NCBI RefSeq assembly: GCF_001294455.1
Contig: NZ_LIKT01000027.1
Location: forward strand, 1 to 59,857
From: Phaeobacter sp. 11ANDIMAR09
GTDB lineage: Bacteria; Pseudomonadota; Alphaproteobacteria; Rhodobacterales; Rhodobacteraceae
Length of the DNA stretch: 59,857 bases
Direction of reading: 5' to 3'
This document shows positions 17,668 to 59,757 of this stretch, piece by piece (within the stretch, counting starts at the first letter, position 1; every line of letters begins with the position of its first letter). The position numbers and the translations under genes were made by a program. The notes under the pieces are model-generated. The model made no database searches. It was not told where the DNA came from and saw only the letters and a list, made by a program, of their open reading frames with translations.

Positions 17668-18104
17668 TGGCGTCCTCCCACGCGTTAGATCTGTGACGAG
17701 TTATGCGCAAGCCTGTGCTTGGAGCAAGCAATCTTGGTAACCCCGCGTCACAGGGACGCAAGAAATTTGCACTTTGTATGATCGGAAGTCTGCAAATTTT
17801 TGCAAAGCTTCACGAATTATAAGGATTGGGGTTGGGTTAAAATCTTTTTGCAAAGTTGCAAATATTGAGGCTGTAATGGAGTAGCCCGCTATTGCGGGAC
17901 GATCAGGTTCGGCCGCCACTGTAGCTGTAGCGGGACACTTCGCGTTGCAGTAAGGGACACTTCCCGTTGCAGCAAATTGTTTTGCCCATTGGACGCGACC
18001 ATTGGGCGCTCGGACGCCTTTTGGAATTTGGCCGCAGGAAGAAGCCAACATCAACGGTCAGCAAAAATTCCGAACGATACCCCGCTTTCGAACTACACGA
18101 ACCA
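17668..18104. other. Intergenic region: prpE promoter side and start of lower-GC DNA
   Basis: A 437-base gap without a gene. The first 250 bases upstream of prpE include AT-rich TTTGCAAA-type tracts (17790-17870). The 53-bp direct repeat begins at 17926, and after it the sequence becomes lower in GC. This looks like the junction between core chromosome and accessory DNA. Confidence 0.45.
17926..17978 (+). repeat. 53-bp direct repeat, left copy
   Basis: This segment is identical to 59473-59525, in the same orientation and 41,547 bp away. It begins 5'-TGTAGC and consists of two 22-bp tandem units, GGGACACTTCGCGTTGCAG + TAA and GGGACACTTCCCGTTGCAG + CAA, then ATT. Sequence on either side of the two copies is unrelated. 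A TG start with internal tandem units looks like a transposon end (IS21-like ends have this style). Direct orientation means the copies are not the two ends of one simple element. Confidence 0.8.
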
Positions 18105-19125: not shown

Positions 19126-19686
19126 TTAACGGCGGTTTATGTAGGCCGTGGCGTCGGTCAGCAAATTTGCCCCCAGTGGGGCAAGCACCCGCTTCCAAAG
19201 CTGCAAGGCTGTCTCTCCAGGTAAGATTTGGACACGCTCCTGGAGCCGTTGCCCGTTGGCCACGACAACCGGCCCGCCATCGATCTGCGGTGTGAGCCAA
19301 TAGACGCTGCCCCCGGTGAAGCGCTGCTCGTCCTCCAGACAGTCCCGGATCGCATGACGGCCCTTGTAGGCGGGCAGGAGGGAGGGGTGGTAGCCAATGG
19401 CCCCCAAGCGGGACCATTCAATGAACCAATCCGGGACAATGCGGAACGAGTGCGCAGAGACGACCAGGTCTGGCCGCCAGGGCAGATCTGCGGAGCGCAG
19501 AGGCAACCAGTGCGGCTTGATCTCATAGGGCAGGCCCAGTGCCTGTGCGGCTTCCAGAGGTTGGCTGTCATCGGGTTCTCCGATCAATGCGGTGTCAAAG
19601 CCTTCGGCGGTCAGGCGGCGCAGCACCTCTGCGGCAAGCCAAGAACGGCCAATAACGGCGATGCGGGGGGCGGGTTTACTCGACAT
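19126..19686 (-). CDS. Formyltransferase-fold protein (Fmt/GART-like), phage-encoded
   Basis: A 186-residue protein with a Rossmann-like start (RIAVIGRSWLAAEVLRRL) and the formyltransferase block IGYHPSLLPAYKGRHAIRDCL near residue 100, followed by GGSVYWLTPQIDGGPVVV. In methionyl-tRNA formyltransferase and ArnA the corresponding motif is N-x-H-x-S-L-L-P with catalytic Asn, His and a later Asp. Here the Asn is Gly (G-Y-H), while His and Asp (QIDGG) remain. It overlaps the ABC-GNAT gene by 11 bases, so the two are co-translated. Substrate unknown; a role in base hypermodification is inferred from position only. Confidence 0.75.
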   Translation of the reverse strand: MSSKPAPRIAVIGRSWLAAEVLRRLTAEGFDTALIGEPDDSQPLEAAQALGLPYEIKPHWLPLRSADLPWRPDLVVSAHSFRIVPDWFIEWSRLGAIGYHPSLLPAYKGRHAIRDCLEDEQRFTGGSVYWLTPQIDGGPVVVANGQRLQERVQILPGETALQLWKRVLAPLGANLLTDATAYINRR

Positions 19687-20752
19687 AGCGAAATCCTTGA
19701 ACAGCTCTGAAATGGCCCCCTAAGCGGCCCTTGATAGATTTTCTTTTTACGGACGAGGATTGCCCGAGGTTCGCAGAGACCTGCGCCCAAAGAGGCTGGC
19801 CACGCAGTGCTGTGGCCAGGCCGGGGTGGGAGGTGTGAAACAACGTGGGCATGGGGCGCTCGTAGCGGTTCACACCGCGCCGCCAGAGGGCACAGACCTC
19901 ATTAAGGAAGCGCAGGCCCAGCCCTGCACCTTGCCATTCAGGCATAATCACCAGGCGGCAAGCACGGGCCTCGACCAATCCCGGCCGAGGCGAAAAGCAA
20001 ACATGCGCCACGGGTTCGCCGTCCACAAAGCCGACGTAGTAGTCAGCCGCCACCATCCGGGGCAGCTTCAGGTAGTGATGCGGCTCAAACAGGGGCCAGT
20101 AGGAACCGTCGGTCTTGTGAATTTCCATGCTGATCCGGGGCGCGCGTCGAAGACGCCTCCATTTGAACTCGGCCGAGCGGGTGTCGATTACCCAGTCGGG
20201 ATTGAGCCATTGCACCACGTCGTCGTGGCATGTGACGCCGACGAACTGGCCGGGACCACGCCGCCAGGCTTTGGCGAAGGCGGCCGCGCCGATCCGGGCA
20301 ACGTGGCGGTCGATGGTAGAGGTGAACTCATCCACCACGGCCAGCGCTGGGCGCTCACAAAGGAGGCGGGCCAGATTGGCGCGGAACTGTTCGCCGTTTG
20401 ACAGGTGCCCCCAGGGGCGCAGCCAGCTCGGCACTGAACCTAATCCAACAGCGGCAAGAGCGGCGGTGACCTGGTCCATTTCAGAGTCGGGGGAAATGGC
20501 ATCAATAATGACATCCTGGCGGGGCCATTGCGGCTCGGCGTCCAGCTCCCGGCCAAACAAGGCCCGGCCGAGAGAGGTCTTGCCGGAACCTGAAGGCCCG
20601 ACGATCAAGCCAACCTGCCAGGGGCGGGCGCTTAGGTCTGCCTCGACGGTCAGGCGAAAATCGGCGTCGCCCTCAACATTGAACATGCTGGAGACGCGCG
20701 CTGCGCGGTAGGTTTCGGGGATGGGCGAGGCGTGATGAATATCAATTTTCAT
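19676..20752 (-). CDS. ABC-type ATPase fused to a GNAT acyltransferase domain (candidate Mom-like modification enzyme)
   Basis: A 358-residue two-domain protein. The N-terminal ABC ATPase has Walker A GPSGSGKTS (52-60), signature LSNGE (117-121), Walker B VVDEFTS (139-145) and switch His176. The C-terminal GNAT domain (about 215-358) carries the acyl-CoA loop in PEWQGAGLGL (ends at 280). No membrane segments or partner permease are present, so it is not a transporter. ATG 20752 overlaps the stop of the preceding small gene (ATGA). It sits where Mu encodes Mom, itself a GNAT-fold enzyme that modifies adenine in DNA, and follows a com homologue. An anti-restriction DNA modification function is inferred. 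Confidence 0.75.
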   Translation of the reverse strand: MKIDIHHASPIPETYRAARVSSMFNVEGDADFRLTVEADLSARPWQVGLIVGPSGSGKTSLGRALFGRELDAEPQWPRQDVIIDAISPDSEMDQVTAALAAVGLGSVPSWLRPWGHLSNGEQFRANLARLLCERPALAVVDEFTSTIDRHVARIGAAAFAKAWRRGPGQFVGVTCHDDVVQWLNPDWVIDTRSAEFKWRRLRRAPRISMEIHKTDGSYWPLFEPHHYLKLPRMVAADYYVGFVDGEPVAHVCFSPRPGLVEARACRLVIMPEWQGAGLGLRFLNEVCALWRRGVNRYERPMPTLFHTSHPGLATALRGQPLWAQVSANLGQSSSVKRKSIKGRLGGHFRAVQGFRYVE

Positions 20753-20931
20753 GTATTCACCACCCGGCATTTGCGACCCTGCGCTTTCAGCTCTTCAAAG
20801 AGGGCCTTCTGCGCGGGTTCGTCCTGGACCAGGACAATGACGCCAAACTGCTGCTTATAGCGTGTCCCTTTGGGAATACCGTGGCAGCCTGGGGGTAGCG
20901 GCGGGAGATTGATCTCGGATGACTTGGGCAT
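20749..20931 (-). CDS. Small phage protein between com and the ABC-GNAT gene
   Basis: A 60-residue protein (MPKSSEINLPPLPPGCHG..., ending CRVVNT). ATG 20931 is preferred because GGAGG lies 7 bases upstream; an ATG at 20949 is possible. Its 5' part overlaps the com 3' end out of frame by 77 bases, and its TGA overlaps the next ATG (ATGA at 20749-20752). This repeats the Mu layout in which com overlaps the start of mom. GGGC and GCCC flank the start codon (20926-20939), so a small hairpin could hide it. Function unknown. Confidence 0.65.
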   Translation of the reverse strand: MPKSSEINLPPLPPGCHGIPKGTRYKQQFGVIVLVQDEPAQKALFEELKAQGRKCRVVNT

Positions 20932-49158: not shown

Positions 49159-50033
49159 TGTACTTGCCCTAGTGGTGAGTAAGAAATTCTGTCTTCGTTG
49201 GGGTCCACAATCACGGTCACACGCTGGGATTGAGGGGGGAGCGGGCCGGTGTTGTTGACCAGATTGAATGGGGTTTCACGGGTGATCTTCTTGGTTGGTT
49301 TTGGGGGCTTGATGTAGCCCGCTTTGGTGAGGGTCCGGCAGTACCTAGTGACCTCGTTCAGCGAGAGGTCGGGTAGGGTCGGCAGAAGGGCTTGGTGCAA
49401 TTCAAGGGGGCGAAAACGGCGCTTGATGCGGATCGCGGACCAGATTGCGCCCTCAGTGCTGGAGCGAAGGTCTTTTGCTGCCGCGCGCTGCTCTTTAGGG
49501 GAATGAACCGTATAGAAGGTTGAAGTCTTCTCGCGGCCCCAGAACTTGACCACTTTTGCGGCGCGCAGCGCGCGCAGAAAACCCATGGTTGCAAGCGGGT
49601 TCTCTGGAAAGGCGGCCATGACGTCACCGTTGGTGAAATGGCGGTGTGCAGAGATGAATTGCCATATCTTGCGCTCGTGGTCTGTGCGGGGCTTTGTGGT
49701 CGGCACATCCACCGCAACGCCCTCGGCTTCTGCCCCTTCGATCAGCTCAAGAAGATAGGCGCGGGCCTTTGCGTCAGAAAGTTCACCGGCCTTATCCATG
49801 GCGTCGATCTTGGTTGCTTCACGAGGCCCCCAAGCGGTGAGGTAGCGAAGACCGCCCGAGACACCACAAGGCACCACCGCGCCCATCTCCCGTAACTTTT
49901 CCAGAAAGCGGGACATGGCTTCTGGCTTGGCTGAACAATGTGCAGAAACATCTATTTCGACAAAGCGAAGCTGGGAGCGAATGAACTCCAGGATCTCCCG
50001 CTCGTGGCCTTTCTTTACAGGAACCTGCATCAT
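49155..50033 (-). CDS. Phage protein downstream of MuB, winged-helix-rich
   Basis: 292 residues with repeated short winged-helix-like segments (EREILEFIRSQLRFVEIDVSAH; HERKIWQFISAHRHFTNGDVM; ATEGAIWSAIRIKRRFRPLE). It overlaps MuB by 4 bases (ATGA). Similar proteins follow MuB in alphaproteobacterial Mu-like phages. Function unknown; DNA binding likely from fold. Confidence 0.6.
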   Translation of the reverse strand: MMQVPVKKGHEREILEFIRSQLRFVEIDVSAHCSAKPEAMSRFLEKLREMGAVVPCGVSGGLRYLTAWGPREATKIDAMDKAGELSDAKARAYLLELIEGAEAEGVAVDVPTTKPRTDHERKIWQFISAHRHFTNGDVMAAFPENPLATMGFLRALRAAKVVKFWGREKTSTFYTVHSPKEQRAAAKDLRSSTEGAIWSAIRIKRRFRPLELHQALLPTLPDLSLNEVTRYCRTLTKAGYIKPPKPTKKITRETPFNLVNNTGPLPPQSQRVTVIVDPNEDRISYSPLGQVQ

Positions 50034-50776
50034 TTCAGGCCACCCCGCGGTACAGGTGCGGTATCACGCAGGAACTCAAGACCGCCCCAGCTTTGCTTGG
50101 TGATTTCGCTGATGGCGTTGAGACGGGCCTGTTTGCAGATATGGGAGACTTCCTTGACGATCCAGCGGGCATTCCCGGTGTGACGGGTGCGCACTTCCTC
50201 TAGGATCTGGTCATCAAAGCTTATGCCCTGGGGGGACACCATGTCTGCCAGTTCCCGTGTATCTCTTAGGTCGGCGGGCAGGGCTTCGGCATAAGCGAAG
50301 ATCCGGCTGTCAAACTGGGTGAACCGCCGGAGTTTCTGCGGGAGGTCCTCTTCACCAACCAACAGGATAGGTGTTTGAGACCCGTCATGCAGGTCACGGA
50401 CAATGCCGGTCAGCCCTTTGGCGACGAGGTAGTCGGCCTCGTCAATGATTAGGGGGCGGCTCTCAATGGCAAGAGCTTGGGTTGCGGCTTGCACCAGTTC
50501 GGGAACCGTCCCTTGTGTAGACTGTCCCAATTCGCGCAGGAGCTGCTGGAGGAAGAATTTCTTACTCCACTCGCTTTGAACAAGCAGGTGAATTGCATCC
50601 AGCTCAACCGCGCAGAAGATCGCGCCAAAGGTTTTGCCGTAGCCCGGAGGGCCATGGAATACGCCAAAGCCGGGGGCACCAAAGACGCGGCCTTTCAACT
50701 CATTAAGCAGCCCGGCCATTCTGGCCACATTGGTCAGCGGCCTGACCGCATTGCCGATTTCAGAAAGATATGCCAT
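50030..50776 (-). CDS. MuB-like transposition ATPase (target selector)
   Basis: 248 residues, AAA+ ATPase. Walker A GPPGYGKT lies near residue 43 and Walker B LIIDEAD near 108, followed by a sensor region (TPILLVGEEDLPQKL) and QFDSRIFAYAEALP with the Arg finger region. MuB binds target DNA non-specifically and delivers it to MuA, and gives target immunity. It follows the transposase gene by 65 bases. Confidence 0.92.
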   Translation of the reverse strand: MAYLSEIGNAVRPLTNVARMAGLLNELKGRVFGAPGFGVFHGPPGYGKTFGAIFCAVELDAIHLLVQSEWSKKFFLQQLLRELGQSTQGTVPELVQAATQALAIESRPLIIDEADYLVAKGLTGIVRDLHDGSQTPILLVGEEDLPQKLRRFTQFDSRIFAYAEALPADLRDTRELADMVSPQGISFDDQILEEVRTRHTGNARWIVKEVSHICKQARLNAISEITKQSWGGLEFLRDTAPVPRGGLK

Positions 50777-50841: not shown

Positions 50842-52974
50842 CTAACCGGCGTTATCGCCGCTAAAGCTTCGTTTGACGGCCAGGAGGCCGGTGTATTCGG
50901 GGTGATCGACAAAGCCTTCCATCCAGCTCCGTTCCCGCTCGCCCACTGGTTCGCCGGCGGTGAATTTCCGCTGGATCTCGGCGACCTGGTCAAAGCGTCC
51001 ATCCGGTGTGCTAGCCACTTGAAACTCGGCGGGGGCGGCCTTGGTCTTTGGCTTGGATTTCATCTGCAGGACCAGCGCGTCCCGAGCTGCAGCCGCGTCG
51101 GGATTGGGCTGAGATGAGGCAATTCGGGGCTGTGGCTTTGGAAAGACCGGCGAAACTACCTTGGCTTCCACCAATGCCGGGGTTTCCCGTCGCCCTGCGT
51201 TCATATCCGCGCCCAGTTGATCGGGTGTGATCGGCGCATGAAGCTCGGCCAGTTTCTTCTGGGCTTTGGTGATTTGGCTTCGGCGGCGAGCCGTAGAACG
51301 CGCGCCTTCCAGGTCAAAGAAACCGACCTTCTGCTGGCATTCGGCAAAGCCCATGTATTCGCCGGTGGTGGCGTAGATATGCAACCCGCTGTGCAAGTCT
51401 TCTGGGTCAAACCGGGCGACAATCTTGGTGCCTGCCTCCTGGCTCATCCAATCGCAGTGATAGACGTTTTTGTGCAGCGTCAGGCTGCCGTTGGATTTGT
51501 GCAGCTTTGCTGGAGCCTGACCCATCAGCCAAAGGCGGCGCTGATCTTCGGTCGCTTTGCGGATCGGCGCGCTGGCATAGCTTTCCTCAAAGGTCTGATC
51601 GAAGGACCGTCCGTTGGTGGTTGCTGAGCGGCGACCGGGGCGGGCGTTGTGTTCAGCGATCCCTTCTTCCAGGACCTCCAGGAAGTCAGCGGCCCTGATA
51701 GCCCGGCTGGCGTAGTTTTCGGGTTTGGCGTCAGGCCGGTTGCCAACATAGGCCCCGGCAAAGCGCGGGTCTTTCGCCACGTCGCTTGCCAGGTCCCGAA
51801 AGGCCCGCTCGATGGGCTTGGCCTGACCATGGGCCGGGGTGGCCCAGTGCATTTGAATTCCCAGATGGGGAAGCACTCCGATTGGGTCGTCTTCGCGCAC
51901 CTTGAACCTGAAACGGGTAGGGGCGCCGGCGGTCATCCACTTGTTGGCAAATTCCCGGCCATTGTCGAAGAGGCAGCGTTTGGGGATACCCCAGTTTTCG
52001 ACCATCTCGCCAAAGGCGGCCATCACCATGACCTTGTTGGGGTCATGATCGACGCGCCAGGAAAGGATTTTGCCGGAGTAGAGGTCCTGAAAGGCGACGA
52101 TCTGAGGGCGGTTTATGGTCCCATCAGGCCATTCCACAAAGACGTCGATCTTATGGCAGTCTGCGTTCACCGCTTCCAGAGCGGTCAGCGTGGACCGGTC
52201 GCGGATCTGGGCAGGAAAGCAGCGCATAAGGCCGTTGGCCCCTTCACGCTTGAAGACCTGGACTGTGCGCGGCACTTCTGCATCCACTTGGCGCTTGGCC
52301 GTCTTCTGGATCGGGTAAGGCCAGCCTTTGCGTTTCGCCTCTGCAACAGCGGCGCGATAGCTTTGGGCGAATGTCGGGCGCTCAAGGCGCAGGAATGCAC
52401 TCTTGAGCCAATCCATAAAGGGGCGGTACTGGGCGCGGTCCTCGGGCTTGCTTCGCTTCTTTGGCGGGCGCGGGGCGAGATAGGCCAGGCGGTCTTCTGG
52501 GGCAATGCCCTCAACCAGGGCGATCCAGTTGTAGACCGTGCGGGGGCTGACGCCCTTCTCCTGGGCGATGGCCTCTACCGCCACCACATGGGTCGCGCCG
52601 CTGATGTGCAGGGCTTCGACCTTCTGCAGGGTGTCCAGACGATCAGCGGCAGTGTCTTTCGCCTTCTGGTTCAGCGCGTCGAACTCTGCCCAGGCCTGGC
52701 CCCGGTCGAGGTTTTCTTCGGGGTGATCTTTGGCGCGCTGCGCTTCCTGCTTAAGCAGGGTTAAACGGGCGTTCAAAGGCAGCACAGACCAATGGTAGAG
52801 CATACCACCGCCGCGGCCAGGCTTGCGCTTGATCGCGCCGGGGGTGGCGCGCCAGTTTTCACGCAAAGCATAGGCATTCACGCCGCGCTCGGAACCGGGC
52901 AGGCCAGGCAGGCAAGCCTCTGCAATCTGCTCAGCAGACCACCATTCACGGGAGGGCGAGATATCAGCACTCAT
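50842..52974 (-). CDS. MuA-like DDE transposase
   Basis: 710 residues. The N-terminal Mu-type DNA-binding domain reads SREWWSAEQIAEACLPGLPGSERG; internal HTH domains follow (KGVSPRTVYNWIALVEG). The RNase-H core has D (DCHKIDVFVEWPDG), D (CLFDNGREFANKW) and E (KPIERAFRDLASD), about residues 285, 350 and 405. The C-terminal Mu-transpos_C barrel and a MuB-contact tail follow. It carries out strand transfer and replicative transposition. ATG 52974 overlaps the ParB stop (ATGA). Confidence 0.95.
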   Translation of the reverse strand: MSADISPSREWWSAEQIAEACLPGLPGSERGVNAYALRENWRATPGAIKRKPGRGGGMLYHWSVLPLNARLTLLKQEAQRAKDHPEENLDRGQAWAEFDALNQKAKDTAADRLDTLQKVEALHISGATHVVAVEAIAQEKGVSPRTVYNWIALVEGIAPEDRLAYLAPRPPKKRSKPEDRAQYRPFMDWLKSAFLRLERPTFAQSYRAAVAEAKRKGWPYPIQKTAKRQVDAEVPRTVQVFKREGANGLMRCFPAQIRDRSTLTALEAVNADCHKIDVFVEWPDGTINRPQIVAFQDLYSGKILSWRVDHDPNKVMVMAAFGEMVENWGIPKRCLFDNGREFANKWMTAGAPTRFRFKVREDDPIGVLPHLGIQMHWATPAHGQAKPIERAFRDLASDVAKDPRFAGAYVGNRPDAKPENYASRAIRAADFLEVLEEGIAEHNARPGRRSATTNGRSFDQTFEESYASAPIRKATEDQRRLWLMGQAPAKLHKSNGSLTLHKNVYHCDWMSQEAGTKIVARFDPEDLHSGLHIYATTGEYMGFAECQQKVGFFDLEGARSTARRRSQITKAQKKLAELHAPITPDQLGADMNAGRRETPALVEAKVVSPVFPKPQPRIASSQPNPDAAAARDALVLQMKSKPKTKAAPAEFQVASTPDGRFDQVAEIQRKFTAGEPVGERERSWMEGFVDHPEYTGLLAVKRSFSGDNAG

Positions 52975-53984
52975 CCGGTGGCCCCCCGCTTGCTCTCAAA
53001 TGGAACCACCTCAGGGGCTTCTGCGTCTTCGACGGCAACATCGTTGATCAATTTGATCAACTCGTCGCAGTACAACCGTGTAAACTCACGGCGGGCGCTC
53101 TTAGGTGCCCGCGAAAAGGCGTCTTTCAGCTTTCCCACGTGCTGCTCATGCGGGGACTGCACCGCCGCTCCTGGGGCTTTCTTGCGGTTTAGCACTTCCT
53201 TGGCGGTCTTGGCTTCCCCAGATCCCAGGGAGGCGCAAATCGCGCTACGGTCGGCCTGTTCGCCACATTTGGCGATCTGTTCCAGGTCCTTGAACTGCAC
53301 CCGATTGGGGGCCTGCCGCAAAAGGGCGATTTCGTGCTTGGAGAGCTTCTCCCCGACGCTGATCAGGCGGCGAATGTGCCGGTCTCCCTTGCCGAAGACC
53401 TCGGCGGCATTGGCGCTGAAAGATGCAACGGACATTATGTCCGTTGCATTCCACCGCCCATGAGCTCCGGCCTTTCCTCTGGCAGTCTCAGGGTTGTCTC
53501 GCTCATAGAGTTCTTTGTGAGCTGCCAGGAAAACCGCCATGTCCAACGGGGTCAGCGGCGCGCCGGCCACGTTGGCGTCCACCTCAATGCGCAACGCTTG
53601 GTCATTGGTGCATTCGCTTACCTTGACTGGCACGTCTTCCAGCCCGGCTTCCTTGGCGGCGGTCAGGCGATGCAGCCCGTCCATCAGGCGATAGCCGCCC
53701 TTGATCCGGCGCACCAGCAACGGCTGCAGGATGCTGCCGACCTCCTGAATAGAGGAAACGATACTGGCGACGGCAGTTTCGGATGCTGTGCGCAGCCGTT
53801 CTTCGACTTCGATATCTGCGACGGGCAGGGTTTGAACGTTCTGCCAATTTGGAGGGGTCATAGCGGATGCTCCAGTTGTCTTGGGTTCAGTTGACGAAGG
53901 CCTGCCGTTCTGTGTGGCATGACCGATGGGACCGGCGCGCTCCGGGGCCTGAAAACGGCCCTCTATGATCTGCGCGCCAGGCAT
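52971..53984 (-). CDS. ParB/Srx-fold phage DNA-binding protein
   Basis: 337 residues. The ParB N-terminal domain is seen at about residues 45-150 (VADIEVEERLRTASETAVAS, then GGYRLMDGLHRLTAAKEAG) with a HTH further on (FGKGDRHIRRLISVGEKLSKHEIALL). Located just before MuA in the early operon. Phage ParB-like proteins of this type may organise phage DNA or control transposition. The start forms TAATG with the upstream gene. Confidence 0.8.
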   Translation of the reverse strand: MPGAQIIEGRFQAPERAGPIGHATQNGRPSSTEPKTTGASAMTPPNWQNVQTLPVADIEVEERLRTASETAVASIVSSIQEVGSILQPLLVRRIKGGYRLMDGLHRLTAAKEAGLEDVPVKVSECTNDQALRIEVDANVAGAPLTPLDMAVFLAAHKELYERDNPETARGKAGAHGRWNATDIMSVASFSANAAEVFGKGDRHIRRLISVGEKLSKHEIALLRQAPNRVQFKDLEQIAKCGEQADRSAICASLGSGEAKTAKEVLNRKKAPGAAVQSPHEQHVGKLKDAFSRAPKSARREFTRLYCDELIKLINDVAVEDAEAPEVVPFESKRGATG

Positions 53985-54286
53985 TAGGTGGCGTCTCGAT
54001 TGTGGGCCGAGACAAAGGCGTAGAAATCGGAGAGGCCGCCCATCGCCTGGAGGCCTGCCATCAGGTTGGCAACCCGCTCTTGAGAGACTTCCATAGCTTC
54101 AACGGCTGCATCTGATTGGTCCGCCAATTCAACGCGTTCGGGCGCTTGGCAAAGCCGAGCGGCCTGAAGTTCCTGGCTGACTTTTTCGAATGCCAGGCGG
54201 CTCTCTGCGTATTCGACAGTCGCAGCCTGCAAAGCAGCGGCAATTGGGACCAAAGAGGTCCGGCGGGATTGAAAGGTTGGGGTCAT
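53984..54286 (-). CDS. Small early phage protein, helical
   Basis: 100 residues from ATG 54286, all-helical (ATVEYAESRLAFEKVSQELQAARL; AAVEAMEVSQERVANLMAGL). Its ATG overlaps the TGA of the upstream gene (54283-54286). No family recognised. Confidence 0.6.
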   Translation of the reverse strand: MTPTFQSRRTSLVPIAAALQAATVEYAESRLAFEKVSQELQAARLCQAPERVELADQSDAAVEAMEVSQERVANLMAGLQAMGGLSDFYAFVSAHNRDAT

Positions 54287-54567
54287 TTCAAGAACTCCAG
54301 AAACAAGAGGAGAAAGAGCAATAGGCAGACGCACAAGCCTCCGATCAGGTCGTCAAGAAACTCGCCAAGCGTTGCCCAGGGCAGCCGGATCTTGCGGCCC
54401 CGGCCTGCCCAAAATGGAACAGAGCCGGGACCCATCGGTGCCGTGAGCGGGCATGAGATATCAAAAGCCCCCAGCGACCCATCCGCTGTGTCGCTGGGGT
54501 AGTGGCCCAACCGCATACAAGCCTTCGGAGCGTCTCGGTTGAGCGTGGGGGAACCAGGGGAGCGCAT
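54283..54567 (-). CDS. Small early phage protein with C-terminal membrane helix
   Basis: 94 residues with a single hydrophobic helix at the C-terminus (IGGLCVCLLLFLLLFLEFL). The N-terminal part is Pro/Gly-rich. It starts 4 bases after the stop of the preceding gene. It could be a membrane-targeted early protein acting on the host; function unknown. Confidence 0.45.
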   Translation of the reverse strand: MRSPGSPTLNRDAPKACMRLGHYPSDTADGSLGAFDISCPLTAPMGPGSVPFWAGRGRKIRLPWATLGEFLDDLIGGLCVCLLLFLLLFLEFLK

Positions 54568-54571
54568 TGTC

Positions 54572-54877
54572 TTAAACGCTCTCGGAAATTCGGAAGAAAG
54601 ACTGGAGCGGTTTGATTTGGATCGGCTTCAAATGAACGCCTTTGCGAACCGCATCGGTTAGAATTTGCCGCTGCAGTTCACAGGCCAATGAAAGGCTCAA
54701 ATGCTCCGGGTCAGCGAGGAAATTTGTGACACGGTTCTTTGAGCCGGGCTTCTTGGGGTCCAACAGGTAGTTGCTGGGGAAAGTTCCCAATTGGAGGGTC
54801 GACTCCTTGACCCAGACTGAAAACTGATCCGGGGAGGGGATGACTAAAACAATGTGCTGTTCTGGCGCGTTGATCAT
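54572..54877 (-). CDS. First early-operon gene, unknown function
   Basis: 101 residues (MINAPEQHIVLVIPSPDQFSVW ... FFRISESV). It is the first gene transcribed leftward from the control region, where Mu has ner. It does not look like the Ner HTH family. GAGG lies upstream of ATG 54877. Confidence 0.6.
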   Translation of the reverse strand: MINAPEQHIVLVIPSPDQFSVWVKESTLQLGTFPSNYLLDPKKPGSKNRVTNFLADPEHLSLSLACELQRQILTDAVRKGVHLKPIQIKPLQSFFRISESV

Positions 54878-54889
54878 GGGTGCCTCGCG

Positions 54890-54928
54890 TTATGATTGCC
54901 CAATCTTAATCATAACGCTTTATGATTA
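54890..54928. promoter_or_regulatory. Early promoter/operator cluster
   Basis: Three copies of TTATGATT in 38 bases: TTATGATT at 54890-54897, its inverted copy AATCATAA at 54908-54915 and TTATGATTA at 54920-54928. The last two form a perfect 8-bp inverted repeat with a 4-base spacer. It lies immediately upstream of the early operon and about 110 bases from the divergent repressor gene, so it is probably the operator that silences the transposition genes. Confidence 0.65.
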
Positions 54929-54989
54929 TCAACCATCAAATATGAAAAAATCCCGTGAAGATGTGAACCTGCAAATTTATGCAGGTTGC

Positions 54990-55012
54990 GAAAATCACAT
55001 TGTGGTATGATA
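54990..55012 (+). promoter_or_regulatory. Repressor promoter element (duplicated upstream of luxR)
   Basis: GAAAATCACATT, then 4 bases, then TATGATA. The same 23-bp layout occurs at 55495-55517 before luxR, with 19 of 23 positions identical. ATCA and TGAT arms lie 10 bases apart. TATGAT could be the -10 box for the repressor. A 26-base gap separates it from ATG 55038. Confidence 0.6.
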
Positions 55013-55037
55013 GAGTGCCCGAAACACGGGGGTGAAC

Positions 55038-55373
55038 ATGCCAAAGATCGATTGGGAGCGGCGTCGGAAAAATATCCGCATCCTTATGGCAGTGGCGGGT
55101 ACTAATCCTACTAGCCTGGCCGAAAGCGTTGGGCTTTCGCCAAATACTCTGTCGAAATTCACCGGTGGAGCCACGCAAAGCCTGAGCCCGCGTTCGCTAG
55201 GTTTGATTGTGGACGGTTTGGGGCTTAGCTCGGCATCTGATCTTGATACTGACAACCCAATAAATGACCCAAAGGTAACTCTCAGAAGGCTTATTGATGA
55301 TCTTCCTGAGGAAAAGCTTCCTGCGCTCCTAAAGGAGCTTGAAGTTCGGTTTTCCGAGTATCTTCAAGAGTAG
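55038..55373 (+). CDS. HTH phage repressor (c-like)
   Basis: 111 residues. A Cro/CI-type HTH lies at about residues 10-65 (NIRILMAVAGTNPTSLAESVGLSPNTLSKF); the C-terminal helix (DLPEEKLPALLKELEVRFSEYL) may oligomerise. It is divergent from the early operon, as c is in Mu. GGGGGTGAAC supplies the ribosome site before ATG 55038; a GTG at 55032 is possible. It should bind the TTATGATT operators. Confidence 0.8.
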   Translation: MPKIDWERRRKNIRILMAVAGTNPTSLAESVGLSPNTLSKFTGGATQSLSPRSLGLIVDGLGLSSASDLDTDNPINDPKVTLRRLIDDLPEEKLPALLKELEVRFSEYLQE

Positions 55374-55483
55374 ACACTTCAAGGACAATTAGTATCGCTG
55401 CGCAGAGCGTTTCCTCCGGGAGGCGCTCTACAAGGCGTTGCAGGTCCAATCTTGCTGGGATCATTTGGACATTTTCATCAGTG

Positions 55484-55517
55484 TTGACATTTATGAAAAT
55501 CACATTCTATTATGATA
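55484..55517 (+). promoter_or_regulatory. luxR promoter with shared operator
   Basis: A near-consensus promoter: TTGACA (55484-55489), an 18-base spacer and TATTAT (55508-55513). The duplicated element GAAAATCACATT-N4-TATGATA (55495-55517) overlaps the spacer and -10 box, so a protein bound there would block the promoter. AAGGGGA before ATG 55539 is the ribosome site. Confidence 0.7.
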
Positions 55518-55538
55518 AAACATCTTTAAGGGGAATGT

Positions 55539-56147
55539 ATGGTAATGACTACCTTTCTTCAAGAAAATTTTTCGGGGTTTGGCTACGTGGTCCTCGGGTT
55601 AGGGGAGATGCCGACTTCAGCAGTGACCAACTTTGAGGTCGACTGGCACCAAAAGTATTTTGCAGAGCAGTATCATCGAGTTGACCCGGTCTTTAAATTC
55701 TTTGCCGACTGCCGGGGCCGATCCGGGACCAGGTTAGTCTCTGAGGCAGAAATGGAAACGCCTCTGTATGAAGAGGCAAAACTCTACGGGGCCGACAGTA
55801 ACTTCATTTCAGTTTCGGCCATAGGAGGGAGCCAGATGGTCCTTGGCGGCGTTAACCATGATCTGGATGTTACCAGGGCATCAATGATCCATAAGTCCTG
55901 CCGAGCAGCGCATAGATCGATCCTTTTAGAGAGGGTTGACCAACTGAGTGACCTGCAGATCGATTTTCTTGAAATGTGCGAGGAAGGACTGATCGACAAG
56001 CAAATCGCCTGTGAGCTTGGGGTGTCGATTTCGGCGGTTGCCCAGAGGAAAAAGGCGATTTGCAACAAGATCGGAGTTTCTAATTTCCGGGCGGCGCTTT
56101 CCCTATACTCGGTTCGAAAATGGAGCGGAATTGTTCCCCTTGTATAG
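55539..56147 (+). CDS. luxR: LuxR-family quorum-sensing regulator, prophage-encoded
   Basis: 202 residues. The N-terminal autoinducer-binding domain (about 10-130) has the family residues Trp36, Tyr40, Tyr45 and Asp49-Pro-Val (WHQKYF, YHRVDPVF) and FISVSAIGG in the sheet. The C-terminal LuxR HTH (about 137-190) reads LSDLQIDFLEMCEEGLIDKQ, then CELGVSISAVAQRKKAI. It should bind the signal made by the adjacent LuxI. It is co-oriented with the repressor and luxI, inside the phage control arm. An ATG at 55545 is an alternative start. Confidence 0.92.
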   Translation: MVMTTFLQENFSGFGYVVLGLGEMPTSAVTNFEVDWHQKYFAEQYHRVDPVFKFFADCRGRSGTRLVSEAEMETPLYEEAKLYGADSNFISVSAIGGSQMVLGGVNHDLDVTRASMIHKSCRAAHRSILLERVDQLSDLQIDFLEMCEEGLIDKQIACELGVSISAVAQRKKAICNKIGVSNFRAALSLYSVRKWSGIVPLV

Positions 56148-56171
56148 AAGTGTAGCCGGTTGAAAAAAACA

Positions 56172-56187
56172 TATCAAATTATGATAA
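56172..56187 (+). promoter_or_regulatory. luxI operator (TATCA-N5-TGATA dyad)
   Basis: TATCA (56172-56176) and TGATA (56182-56186) form a perfect inverted repeat around AATTA, ending in the TTATGATAA motif shared with the early operators and the luxR promoter. TATGAT (56180-56185) could be the -10 box of a separate luxI promoter. It is unlike the classical lux box (ACCTGT-type), so it may be read by the repressor, LuxR or both. Confidence 0.5.
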
Positions 56188-56197
56188 GTAGCGTCAT

Positions 56198-56818
56198 ATG
56201 ATGACTAACACCTTCCTGGTCGATCTGCGTGACCCTTCGTCTCGTGTGGATCTGTATGCTGATTGCCTCCGTTTGCGGAAAGAAGTGTTTATCTCTCAGA
56301 TGGGTTGGAACCTCTACGAGGCCAGCGGTTGCGAGTATGACCAATATGATATCCCGGCTTCGATCCATCTGGCGGCAACGTTGAACGGGGTTTTGGTTGG
56401 GTGCATTCGGTTGCTCCGTACCGATAGCGTTCATAGCGGTGTCACATACATGATCTTGGATGCACATCGAGGGAAGATCCCAAACTTGCCCCAGGGGATA
56501 ATGCATGAAGAGCTTGTGTCCGAGAGCGTTTGGGAAGCTTCAAGGCTTGCGATTTCCACGTTAGTGCCCGGCGAAATTCGAAACCAGCTCCTGATCGGTT
56601 TGGTAGATGCAGCGCGGCGGTACGTTCAAGAAGCAGGAGGGGTCTCAATGTTAGGAATGATGCATCCGGCTTTTTTGAGAACCTTTAGGAGAGCGGGTTT
56701 CAATGTGCGCCGGTTCGGCCCAACGGCGCCGCAAAGAGATGGCCCGATCTGTGTCTTACGCTGGGACTTTGTGGCAGAAACCTCCGAAAGAACGATAAGC
56801 GTGCTGTGCAGCGGTTGA
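56198..56818 (+). CDS. luxI: LuxI-family acyl-homoserine lactone synthase, prophage-encoded
   Basis: 206 residues. All diagnostic LuxI residues are present at the family spacing: Arg27, Phe31, Trp37, Glu46, Asp48, Asp51, Arg71, Glu113 and Arg116 (RKEVF, GW, EYDQYD, CIRLLRT, WEASRLA). The enzyme makes an N-acyl-homoserine lactone from SAM and acyl-ACP or acyl-CoA. It follows luxR with a 50-base gap holding the dyad at 56172. The start is ATG 56198 or 56201. Chain length of the signal cannot be read from the sequence. Confidence 0.93.
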   Translation: MMTNTFLVDLRDPSSRVDLYADCLRLRKEVFISQMGWNLYEASGCEYDQYDIPASIHLAATLNGVLVGCIRLLRTDSVHSGVTYMILDAHRGKIPNLPQGIMHEELVSESVWEASRLAISTLVPGEIRNQLLIGLVDAARRYVQEAGGVSMLGMMHPAFLRTFRRAGFNVRRFGPTAPQRDGPICVLRWDFVAETSERTISVLCSG

Positions 56819-56842
56819 GGCTGCACAGGAGGTATTGAATTC

Positions 56843-57022
56843 ATGAAGAAAATCGTCCTCAGCTCTCCTGGTGTGCAGCAGCCAAAGGTGCACAAGGGGT
56901 GGCGGAGTTTTGCAAATTCCGTTGAAATGCAAAGGCTTAAAATTCTCGACGAGAGAATAGAACGTCAAAAAAAATTCTTAGCGATACTGTTAAGGATCGG
57001 AAGGCGATCCGTTCCAGGCTGA
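56843..57022 (+). CDS. Small basic protein at the end of the lux operon (59 aa)
   Basis: A 59-codon gene with a strong AGGAGG 8 bases before ATG 56843 and only 24 bases after the luxI stop. Sequence is Lys/Arg-rich with helical character (MKKIVLSSPGVQQPKVHKGW, then EMQRLKILDERIERQKKF). It is too short for usual gene finders. Being third in the lux operon it may act downstream of quorum signalling, for example as an anti-repressor, but no family is recognised. Confidence 0.6.
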   Translation: MKKIVLSSPGVQQPKVHKGWRSFANSVEMQRLKILDERIERQKKFLAILLRIGRRSVPG

Positions 57023-57079: not shown

Positions 57080-57122
57080 TATCAGACACCTAGCTAGGCT
57101 TTGCACGTTTAGGCGTCTGATA
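57080..57122 (+). terminator. Hairpin downstream of the lux operon
   Basis: TATCAGACACCTA (57080-57092) and TAGGCGTCTGATA (57110-57122) pair at 12 of 13 positions across a 17-base loop. No T-run follows, so it may be a weak or bidirectional terminator, or part of the phage end region. It lies 58 bases after the 59-aa gene. Confidence 0.5.
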
Positions 57123-57393: not shown

Positions 57394-57790
57394 AGGTCTT
57401 CCACTTTTTGAATGTGAGCCAGTTTGAACACGGTGCACCGCACAACTCAAGAGTTTATTTTGTCGGCAAGAAAACCTTTTGGGTGAATTTCGGTCGGGGC
57501 GTATCCCTGAAAGCCTCTGAAAATCCGTTCCGAGTTCGAAAGCGATGTTCCGGTTGCTCATTCTCACTAACCGTATGCAATTTATGCCAATATTTCGTTC
57601 TCGGAACTGGAAAGCACCGACGCGCTCTAATTCCGAGTTCGGGACTCAACATAATGACGCTTATCGGCTCGGCAGGGCGTGGTTACCGCTTCAGCCTGGC
57701 AGGGAGCGTTGAAGGTCTGGTGTGCGGACGGAGCCGACATTAGCCGCAGTTCCACGGATGGCCGCTTTGAGGCAGGCGACCTCAAGCCAC
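57394..57790. other. Non-coding region with the left 128-bp repeat
   Basis: 397 bases without a convincing gene. It contains the 128-bp repeat at 57527-57654 and, near the end, GCGGACGGAGCCGACATT (57724-57742), similar in style to intergenic sequence near the chemotaxis receptor gene. No clear promoter is visible. Confidence 0.4.
57527..57654 (+). repeat. 128-bp diverged repeat, copy 1
   Basis: Begins GTTCCGAGTTCGAA and ends TTCCGAGTTCGGGACTCAACATAA, with an inverted related block CGTTCTCGGAACTG in the middle (offset 69). Copy 2 at 59078-59205 has the same length and the same block offsets (0, 69, 104), so the pair is collinear with no net insertion. Internal inverted blocks can fold into a hairpin. 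The two copies flank one gene. Confidence 0.65.
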
Positions 57791-58930: not shown

Positions 58931-59472
58931 ATTTCCCTTTCATCAAAAAGCCTTTCAGAACCAGCGGATTAAAAGCCGACGATCGTGCAATATGCAGCAT
59001 TTGTCAAAGTGGGCTCATAGCTGCCATTCTCCGCGCCGCAGCAAGCGAAGGCAAGTCTGAGATGGGTTCCAAAATCAGTTCCGAGTTCGAAACGCGGCTG
59101 AGGCATGTCGATTTTGTTCAAATTGTTGTCATGAAACACATAATCCCGTTCTAGGAACTGAGCCGCTTCAGTCCGCGCTAGTTCTGAGTTCGGGACTTAA
59201 CATAAGTGCCATTATTGGACTCTGCTGCGTCGCAAAAGCCTTATTTGTAAGGGGCAGAACGGGGTAGGGGAGTTTGATAAGCGAAGTGTCCGCAAATCGC
59301 CTTGGTGCCCTGTTTGGGCCTTTTGAGCCGGGTTTGAAAGACAAAACGTCCGGGGGTGTAAATCCCCTTTGAACCCTATTGAAAGCCCTTTTTTACATAG
59401 TTCTATCCGGCTTCTTCCGGGATCATCCGGCCTCTTCCGGTTACTGCAATATCAAGTGTCTCCTAACACTGT
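58931..59472. other. Non-coding region between the hydrolase gene and the 53-bp repeat
   Basis: About 540 bases without a gene of more than 60 codons that looks real. It contains the second 128-bp repeat (59078-59205) and two tandem 16-base units ATCCGGC-TCTTCCGG type (59405-59420 and 59425-59440, one mismatch). Confidence 0.45.
59078..59205 (+). repeat. 128-bp diverged repeat, copy 2
   Basis: Partner of 57527-57654, same orientation. Starts GTTCCGAGTTCGAA, has CGTTCTAGGAACTG in the middle and ends TTCTGAGTTCGGGACTTAACATAA. Identical length and block offsets to copy 1, with scattered substitutions elsewhere. The two lie on either side of the membrane hydrolase gene. Confidence 0.65.
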
Positions 59473-59525
59473 TGTAGCGGGACACTTCGCGTTGCAGTAA
59501 GGGACACTTCCCGTTGCAGCAAATT
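59473..59525 (+). repeat. 53-bp direct repeat, right copy
   Basis: Identical to 17926-17978, same orientation. It ends inside the stop codon of the zinc-ribbon gene that follows (TTA at 59524-59526 on the plus strand). The neighbouring sequence differs from the left copy on both sides. Confidence 0.8.
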
Positions 59526-59757
59526 ATTTCTCTGATTTATCGGGCGAGGGCTGTTCCGGCGTCAAGAGGATTTGAGCCCCATTAGCCGTTGGGTTTACTG
59601 AGGCGTCCCACCCGAGGAGGGGCTGGAATTGGTTCAACCTACCGCAAACCGTACAGCGCCCGTTGAAGCCCTTTAGCGCCTTCCTGGCCTCTACCGCGTT
59701 TTTGTCCCTTATTGTTCCGGTATGACCGCATACGCAGACGGCATGAATAACGTGCAT
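59524..59757 (-). CDS. Small zinc-ribbon protein
   Basis: 77 residues with CVCGHTGTIR and GRCTVCGRLNQF, giving a C-x-C and C-x2-C zinc ribbon. The TTCTTTPEQPSPDKSEK-style tail is acidic/polar. Family unknown. Its last codons overlap the 53-bp repeat, so the repeat may have changed or created its 3' end. The window ends 100 bases upstream of the start, with no further gene. Confidence 0.55.
   Translation of the reverse strand: MHVIHAVCVCGHTGTIRDKNAVEARKALKGFNGRCTVCGRLNQFQPLLGWDASVNPTANGAQILLTPEQPSPDKSEK

Follow-up and report, generated by a model that had tools for sequence, protein, structure and literature searches.

A LuxR-LuxI Quorum-Sensing Module in the Early Control Arm of a Mu-Like Prophage of Phaeobacter sp. 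11ANDIMAR09, a Probable Lysis–Lysogeny Switch

Introduction

The closest described system is found in the preprint of Bunsick et al. (bioRxiv, July 2026; PMC13345283), whose main text presents Phage A of Phaeobacter inhibens T5, a Mu-family phage with an hth / xre-luxR-luxI switch, such modules being described as four-gene. In Phage A, luxI, luxR and xre are all required for the lysogeny promoter, and the activity of a reporter without luxI is restored by the signal; LuxR with the signal drives lysogeny, and blocking the signal induces the phage. The host signal, acting with PgaR, represses the lysogeny promoter and induces the phage structural genes. The same text counts 53 quorum-sensing prophages among 93 Roseobacter prophages, distinguishes types A–J with a cut-off of 80%, and also presents Phage B of P. 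inhibens T5, a myovirus-like phage having the gene order described below on a different backbone. In the Aeromonas phages ARM81ld and Apop, as the available parts of their descriptions state, XRE and LuxR with the signal turn on a small ORF of opposite orientation, by which CI is inactivated (PMC10432266, PMC9894119).

The DNA analysed here, called the window, has 59,857 bases and makes up the whole of contig C27; the genome is 4.7 Mb in size and split over 101 contigs. Its prophage is similar to Phage A, as described in the preprint's main text, in being a Mu-type phage with a divergent gene and an xre-luxR-luxI row, in having no recognised CI or Mu-type Ner/C repressor, and in the swapping of cassettes between related phages, including to CI cassettes (PMC13345283). 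In contrast to Phage A, 165 bp separate xre from luxR in the window, where a promoter-like site is found along with an antisense ORF. The original prediction was unsure whether such a pair had been described; the kind already is, and this copy is a divergent one, set beside the modules of the preprint by description. What is added here is a predicted lux box, operator-like dyads at the predicted lytic promoter and a small antisense ORF. The original prediction mentions neither the lux box nor this ORF, nor the divergent gene. A word search of the preprint's main text returned none of the terms 'Lux box', 'operator', 'palindrom', 'antisense' and 'antirepressor' (PMC13345283).

Among the sequences of the phage collection, the nearest MuA proteins (43–52% identical) belong to the roseophages vB_PeaS-P1, vB_RhkS_P1 and vB_ThpS-P1, which have the ParB-MuA-MuB order and lie outside the four phage records with a LuxI match. 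For the Pelagibaca and Thiobacimonas phages, the available text reports that the arm has a gene annotated as repressor or regulator (PMC5488378), and a word search of the available text of PMC8224337 and PMC5488378 found no word beginning with lux.

Gene Organization of the Switch Region

In the early control arm of the Mu-like prophage, the + strand holds xre, luxR and luxI one after the other (55032–56818). Divergent from them, on the opposite strand, is a gene of 101 amino acids, followed by ParB, MuA and MuB (Table 1). The neighbouring prophage genes, including those for tail, head and terminase, are on the - strand, and homologues of both MuA and MuB are present, which marks a Mu-like transposable phage. 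The LuxI of the window has an identical counterpart in an IMG/VR record of 39,244 bp, which, if collinear, covers about 19,687–58,930. At the late end of the prophage (19126–20770), a formyltransferase-like gene is seen together with a gene having an ABC-ATPase-like part.

Table 1. Positions of the genes and predicted control sites in the window.
Feature	Position	Strand	Evidence or remarks
MuB-like DNA transposition protein	50030..50776	-	phrog_296, 1.8e-41
Mu transposase A (MuA)	50842..52974	-	PF02914 DDE_2 1.6e-50; phrog_310 1.2e-147
ParB-like protein, heads the conserved early genes	52971..53984	-	PF02195 4.3e-11
Small conserved gene separating ParB from the exchangeable switch	53984..54334	-	53–56% identical in five same-genus prophages
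Divergent 101-aa gene, in place of the preprint's 'hth' (lytic-side regulator)	54572..54877	-	tblastn homologues
Overlapping AATCATAA/TTATGATT dyads, likely repressor operator at lytic promoter	54887..54928	.	inverted repeats
Predicted lux box ACCTGCAAATTTATGCAGGT	54967..54986	.	sole mismatch-free ACCTGY-N8-RCAGGT match in the window
-10-like TATGAT, predicted lysogeny promoter	55006..55011	+	sequence
xre, Cro/CI-type regulator	55032..55373 (ATG start 55038)	+	113 aa; HTH_26, HTH_31 below Pfam cut-off
Small antisense ORF between xre and luxR	55291..55464	-	57 aa from ATG; 70 aa from GTG at 55503
Sigma-70-like promoter TTGACA-18-TATTAT before luxR	55484..55513	+	11/12 positions; TTATGATAA over -10
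luxR, predicted AHL receptor and activator	55539..56147	+	202 aa; Autoind_bind + GerE
luxI, predicted AHL synthase	56198..56818	+	206 aa; Autoind_synth 46 (cut-off 24)
ORF 3' of luxI	56843..57022	+	59 aa; no Pfam or PHROGs match

The assignment of XRE relies on sub-threshold Pfam matches and on one relative (L041) that scores above the threshold; the window gene is 48–64% identical to seven relatives. No S24/peptidase domain is recognised in it by Pfam, unlike the CI of two alternative cassettes discussed below, and this fits a switch that is deaf to DNA damage. The divergent gene has homologues, as found by tblastn, at the same place in seven loci (L041–L044 and L011–L013), and its product has no Pfam or PHROGs match. 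It is predicted to be helical (mean pLDDT 74.7), and a fold search gave no significant match, HTH proteins standing first among the non-significant ones (E about 2). A conserved counter-oriented gene is present upstream of the row, and it may encode an HTH protein.

The original prediction placed a full LuxR, with autoinducer domain and HTH, after the phage repressor on the same strand, and this holds, both domains passing the Pfam cut-offs, narrowly in each case (Autoind_bind 23.8, cut-off 23; GerE 25.3, cut-off 23.5). The predicted model of LuxR (mean pLDDT 88.8) is similar to LasR, SdiA, RhlR and TraR with a Foldseek probability of 1.00, the full-length TM-scores being modest (0.36–0.52), and a sequence-only search of solved structures gave no match at E≤0.001. 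Regarding LuxI, the claim of a full synthase is confirmed as well, as it passes the Autoind_synth cut-off, and the nine residues listed as diagnostic by the original prediction (Arg27, Phe31, Trp37, Glu46, Asp48, Asp51, Arg71, Glu113 and Arg116) are all found at those positions. Eight of them are invariant in an alignment of eight rows, Phe31 being replaced by leucine in three. Among the matches of LuxI are two AHL synthases of solved structure (3p2f and 1ro5) and phrog_31881, a PHROG of unknown function (1.7e-21), and the best full-length LuxI relatives found are 57–58% identical. Against the exosortase acyltransferase family TIGR03694 LuxI scores 43.9 bits, which is below the cut-off of 112 but better than against the TraI models, so that the identity of the LuxI product is not certain.

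Control Sites Before xre and luxR

The predicted lux box agrees at 12 of 14 arm positions with the Vibrio fischeri consensus. When the xre start site is assumed to be 7 bases past the TATGAT hexamer, the centre of the box falls at about -41.5, near the usual place for activation by LuxR-type proteins. A sigma-70 scan listed no + strand promoter at this hexamer (55006–55011), which would fit an activator-dependent promoter. The pattern ACCTGY-N8-RCAGGT with up to two mismatches has 11 matches in the window against 6.8 expected, which is unremarkable. For the comparison of modules, a looser pattern picked after the sequences had been viewed was set aside, and the score against the V. fischeri consensus was relied on instead. 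Summed over eight related modules, this score reaches 85 of 112, and the maximum of 2000 shuffles is 72. Therefore, a chance origin of the box was rejected for the group by the summed score, relative to single-base shuffles. The sums include L069 and leave out L012 and L013, which are near copies of L011. In seven of the eight modules the site is centred 57–73 bp upstream of xre, and L067 lacks it at the usual place, its best match (8/14) lying 38 bp from xre. The boxes of L044, L069 and L011 have 10/14 each, a score that 58–113 of the 2000 shuffles reach when each is taken singly, and three modules of other types gave chance-level scores in the same test.

At the divergent lytic promoter, where a promoter-like site is found on the - strand (54932–54903, 9/12 positions), an inverted repeat of 12 pairs spans 54887–54918, and the perfect 9+9 dyad TAATCATAACGCTTTATGATTA is equalled in 2 of 300 shuffles. 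The operator dyad is prominent in the window and in L042 but not in most of the ten sequences tested. By eye, elements resembling AATCATAA/TTATGATT are also present before luxR in the window and in several relatives. It is plausible that these dyads are XRE binding sites.

The site before luxR is a better promoter match in the window than in the relatives, which reach at best 9 of 12 sigma-70 positions, and it might let luxR and luxI run without the lux box. Together with the long gap between xre and luxR, this site could be taken as a sign that the lux pair is phage cargo acting on host behaviour or on rival phages, with little part in the decision of the phage itself, and one prophage of the preprint does activate the quorum sensing of its host, according to its main text (PMC13345283). 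This reading is unlikely, as the lux box precedes xre, with a site at the matching place in seven of eight related modules, and what is exchanged between prophages is the switch, starting a short way beyond the divergent gene.

A Small Antisense ORF Between xre and luxR

A small ORF recurs on the opposite strand in the region where xre ends and luxR follows, in phages of different hosts. A leave-one-out profile search, whose members were chosen by place and by eye, ranks this ORF first in seven of the nine loci tested, with E values of 0.003 in L067, 1e-6 in L043, 1e-8 in L041, 7e-10 in L044 and 3e-10 in L042. In the window it is rank 1 of 1630 stretches (E 0.058), and in L011 its E is 0.1, the next match having 0.21; the matches in these two are weak when taken singly. 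The profile did not pick it out in L069 or L071. An ORF is also seen at the same place in the second-type modules of L082 and L085, when compared by eye.

Comparing L011–L013, the ORF has 40 variable columns, distributed as 20 at the third codon position, 12 at the first and 8 at the second, with nine consecutive third-position columns in its core. Over the whole ORF, however, nonsynonymous codon differences exceed synonymous ones (18 to 14, 8 to 2 and 21 to 11). In addition, its conserved segment weakly resembles the C-terminal tail of XRE (HHalign probability 35%). A tentative and rather doubtful proposal is that the ORF is a fifth gene of the switch, encoding a lytic-strand protein that would pair with XRE and disarm it, that is, an antirepressor opposed by the signal–LuxR loop.

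The presence of XRE, LuxR and a counter-oriented small ORF recalls ARM81ld and Apop, where the phage XRE and LuxR act together and a small protein gene is counter-oriented, as stated in the available parts of their descriptions (PMC10432266, PMC9894119). Those similarities would speak for an inverse wiring, in which XRE and LuxR with the signal drive lysis. However, the Aeromonas modules, in which lysis is driven, are described without a synthase and sense the C4-HSL of the host, and the small ORF of Apop precedes xre instead of following it (PMC10432266, PMC9894119). The synthase stands in the row here, hence with such wiring every lysogen would signal to itself. Moreover, no CI is present among the ten arm ORFs scanned with Pfam, the rest of the phage being partly scanned. 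An inverse wiring is thus quite improbable, and a switch in which the signal holds lysogeny is preferred.

Related Loci and Synteny

A scan of species-representative genomes with the LuxI alignment found seven loci. Four of them carry the whole module, namely L041 (Rhodobacter sp. MAG), L042 (Rhodobacterales MAG), L043 (Alphaproteobacteria MAG) and L044 (uncultured Pelagimonas), and the other three are two stumps (L045, Roseobacter sp. MED193, and L046, Phaeobacter sp. HF9A) and a distant type (L047, 31%). Synteny with Mu-like prophages, the check proposed by the original prediction, bears it out: MuA, ParB, xre, luxR and luxI occur in the same order in five loci (L041–L044 and L067), the row lying beside the Mu transposase and the divergent gene being found by tblastn in L041–L044 and as an ORF by eye in L067. 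Relative to the window, MuA is 37–52% identical and LuxI 53–57% in these loci (58% for the gene of L041). L069, left out of this count, has an xre-luxR-luxI row that is 47, 40 and 35% identical, with one stop, and no MuA match within 19.5 kb. The IMG/VR records L011–L013 (about 41 kb) also have the hth, xre, luxR and luxI row, their xre, luxR and luxI being 42–50% identical to those of the window; they gave no match to the window MuA used as the sole query, a negative that shows little there.

In a survey of 394 genomes of the family (393 genera), 6 have a window-type LuxI (E≤1e-30). The 101-aa gene (E≤1e-4) is found in 4 genomes, all of them within the LuxI-positive 6, and the own genome is counted in both. 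Judged from these genomes, this is a rare module with linked parts. Regarding the genus of Phaeobacter sp. HF9A, 5 of 18 genomes have a MuA match and none has a full window-type LuxI. A plasmid-cargo reading was also considered and rejected, a blastn search having found no similar DNA in 72,556 plasmid records (E≤1e-5).

Cassette Exchange and Decay

Within the genus of the window's host, 6 of 12 members, own included, have a MuA match, with eight matches in total. Five of these prophages, from three genomes, retain a full-length ParB (L082–L086), with 71–82% DNA identity to the window from the early genes and a ParB that is 73–82% identical across them. L087, whose ParB is mostly lost, and L079, a fragment, are excluded from this count. 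In all five, the homology to the window ends at 54513–54552, 20–60 bp past the stop of the divergent gene. Past this junction, L082 and L085 carry a second lux module with a LuxI only 28–29% identical to that of the window, L083 has a CI with S24 peptidase, and L084 and L086 have a CI-like HTH gene. The whole switch is exchanged as a unit at one junction between prophages of the same genus, and the same kind of exchange is described in the main text of the preprint (PMC13345283).

The recurring order beside divergent Mu transposases, along with other switches at the same place, indicates that the lux pair belongs to the phage switch. Its assignment to the lysogeny-control arm, made by the original prediction, therefore stands, and the idea of a host gene merely adjoining the phage is ruled out by the synteny and the exchange. 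What is observed comprises the genes with their order and conservation, the lux box, and a cassette that is exchanged as a unit; the module is real, functional-looking and phage-borne.

Decay is also seen in relatives. The Mu-like prophage of Phaeobacter sp. HF9A (L046/L010) has kept MuA, but its switch region holds a CI repressor of the S24 type with a luxI stump beside it, likely the trace of a quorum-sensing switch replaced by a DNA-damage switch. The stumps L045 and L046 have one internal stop each, one of 11 genus mates has the same luxI stump as MED193 at the same place, which marks the host as a member of the roseobacter group, and another stump is found on contig C19 of the own genome (L073; 94 bp at 95.7% identity). 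That stump is part of a phage remnant (L073 1717–1881), in which a piece of the formyltransferase-like gene adjoins it. Those stumps and the other cassettes of relatives would agree with a module that is decaying or unused, the window copy being a remnant; this is very improbable, since the frames of xre, luxR, luxI, ParB, MuA and MuB are open in the window and the catalytic residues are kept.

Phage Ends and Neighbouring Repeats

The location of the lux pair inside the phage is supported by the synteny and the exchange, which also speak against a Mu left end between the repressor and luxR, the find that the original prediction named as refuting. End scans for target duplications with inverted tips, begun at 56,820 and 56,990, identified no end. 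They gave 21 candidate pairs, each with TG/CA tips and a repeat of 5 or 6 bp, and no pair was prominent. Two phages of the same genus with near-identical second-type modules show a homology break about 106 bp past luxI, which was not called as a phage end, being without a clear TG tip. An inverted repeat, TATCAGACACCTA ... TAGGCGTCTGATA (57080–57122), was weighed as an end or a terminator; among 102 loci it occurs only in four copies of the same region.

Farther out, direct repeat copies, made of two tandem 22-bp units (GGGACACTTCGCGTTGCAGTAA), are present at 17926–17982 and 59475–59529. This repeat has matches in 12 of the 12 genus genomes searched, often in several places, and by eye it looks like a transposon end. 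The segments 57598–57770 and 58970–59470 have matches elsewhere in genus genomes and are thus perhaps host sequence beyond the phage.

Other lux Loci of the Host Genome

The own genome has three full-length LuxI genes (window, contig C2 and contig C7), similar to the three-system situation of P. inhibens T5. Contig C2 carries, near its end, a second hth-like ORF/xre-luxR-luxI module (L002; L070, 17726–19832), whose LuxI is 29% identical to that of the window. In this module xre and luxR overlap, it adjoins an integrase match just below the cut-off, and a relative is found in a genome of the HF9A genus (L098, 41% LuxI identity). On contig C7 (L003, 1447–2049), a luxI is seen without a luxR beside it, between ureG-like and histidine kinase-like genes, by eye. 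The relatives of this synthase, 86% identical in MED193 and 64–70% in four HF9A-genus genomes, suggest that it is probably the host's own.

Proposed Mode of Action

The module is most likely a lysis–lysogeny switch of the Mu-like prophage run by quorum sensing, in which the signal reports the density of lysogens and holds lysogeny. In a lysogen, LuxI would make an acyl-homoserine lactone, and the signal-bound LuxR would act at the lux box, centred near -41.5 relative to the predicted xre start site, switching on xre, luxR and luxI in a positive loop. XRE would then bind the AATCATAA/TTATGATT dyads at the divergent promoter, shutting off the 101-aa gene and ParB-MuA-MuB. With many lysogens there would be much signal and stable lysogeny; when the signal is scarce or blocked, the loop would fail and the lytic genes would be turned on. 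We infer direct binding of LuxR to the lux box and of XRE to the dyads, as well as the identity of the signal and which way this phage decides. Arbitrium, the system of SPbeta phages, has a peptide signal and proteins unrelated to the lux ones. It is similar in that a signal made by lysogens favours lysogeny, as found in the main text of the preprint (PMC13345283).

That the signal from lysogens holds lysogeny is the best model, by analogy with Phage A. According to the main text, XRE is an activator in Phage A but a suppressor in Phage B, so that its role in the present phage is not settled (PMC13345283). The suggestion that the signal concentration affects the lysis–lysogeny choice or reports lysogen density agrees with the experiments described there, which show a module of this kind controlling it (PMC13345283).

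Conclusions

The prophage probably counts its fellow carriers through a signalling system of its own. Its lux box gives a testable site of action, which the main text of the preprint does not name (PMC13345283). The small antisense ORF may belong to the switch as a component that has gone unrecognised and, if the proposal made for it is true, the phage would have opposed divergent promoters in two pairs (hth/xre, small ORF/luxR) rather than in a single pair. The cassette family is old and wide, standing beside transposases only 37–52% identical to that of the window, and its relatives also occur in phage records without a detected Mu transposase. Such viruses carry both halves of a bacterial language, with which they may count their own lysogens and interfere with the decisions of hosts and rivals.
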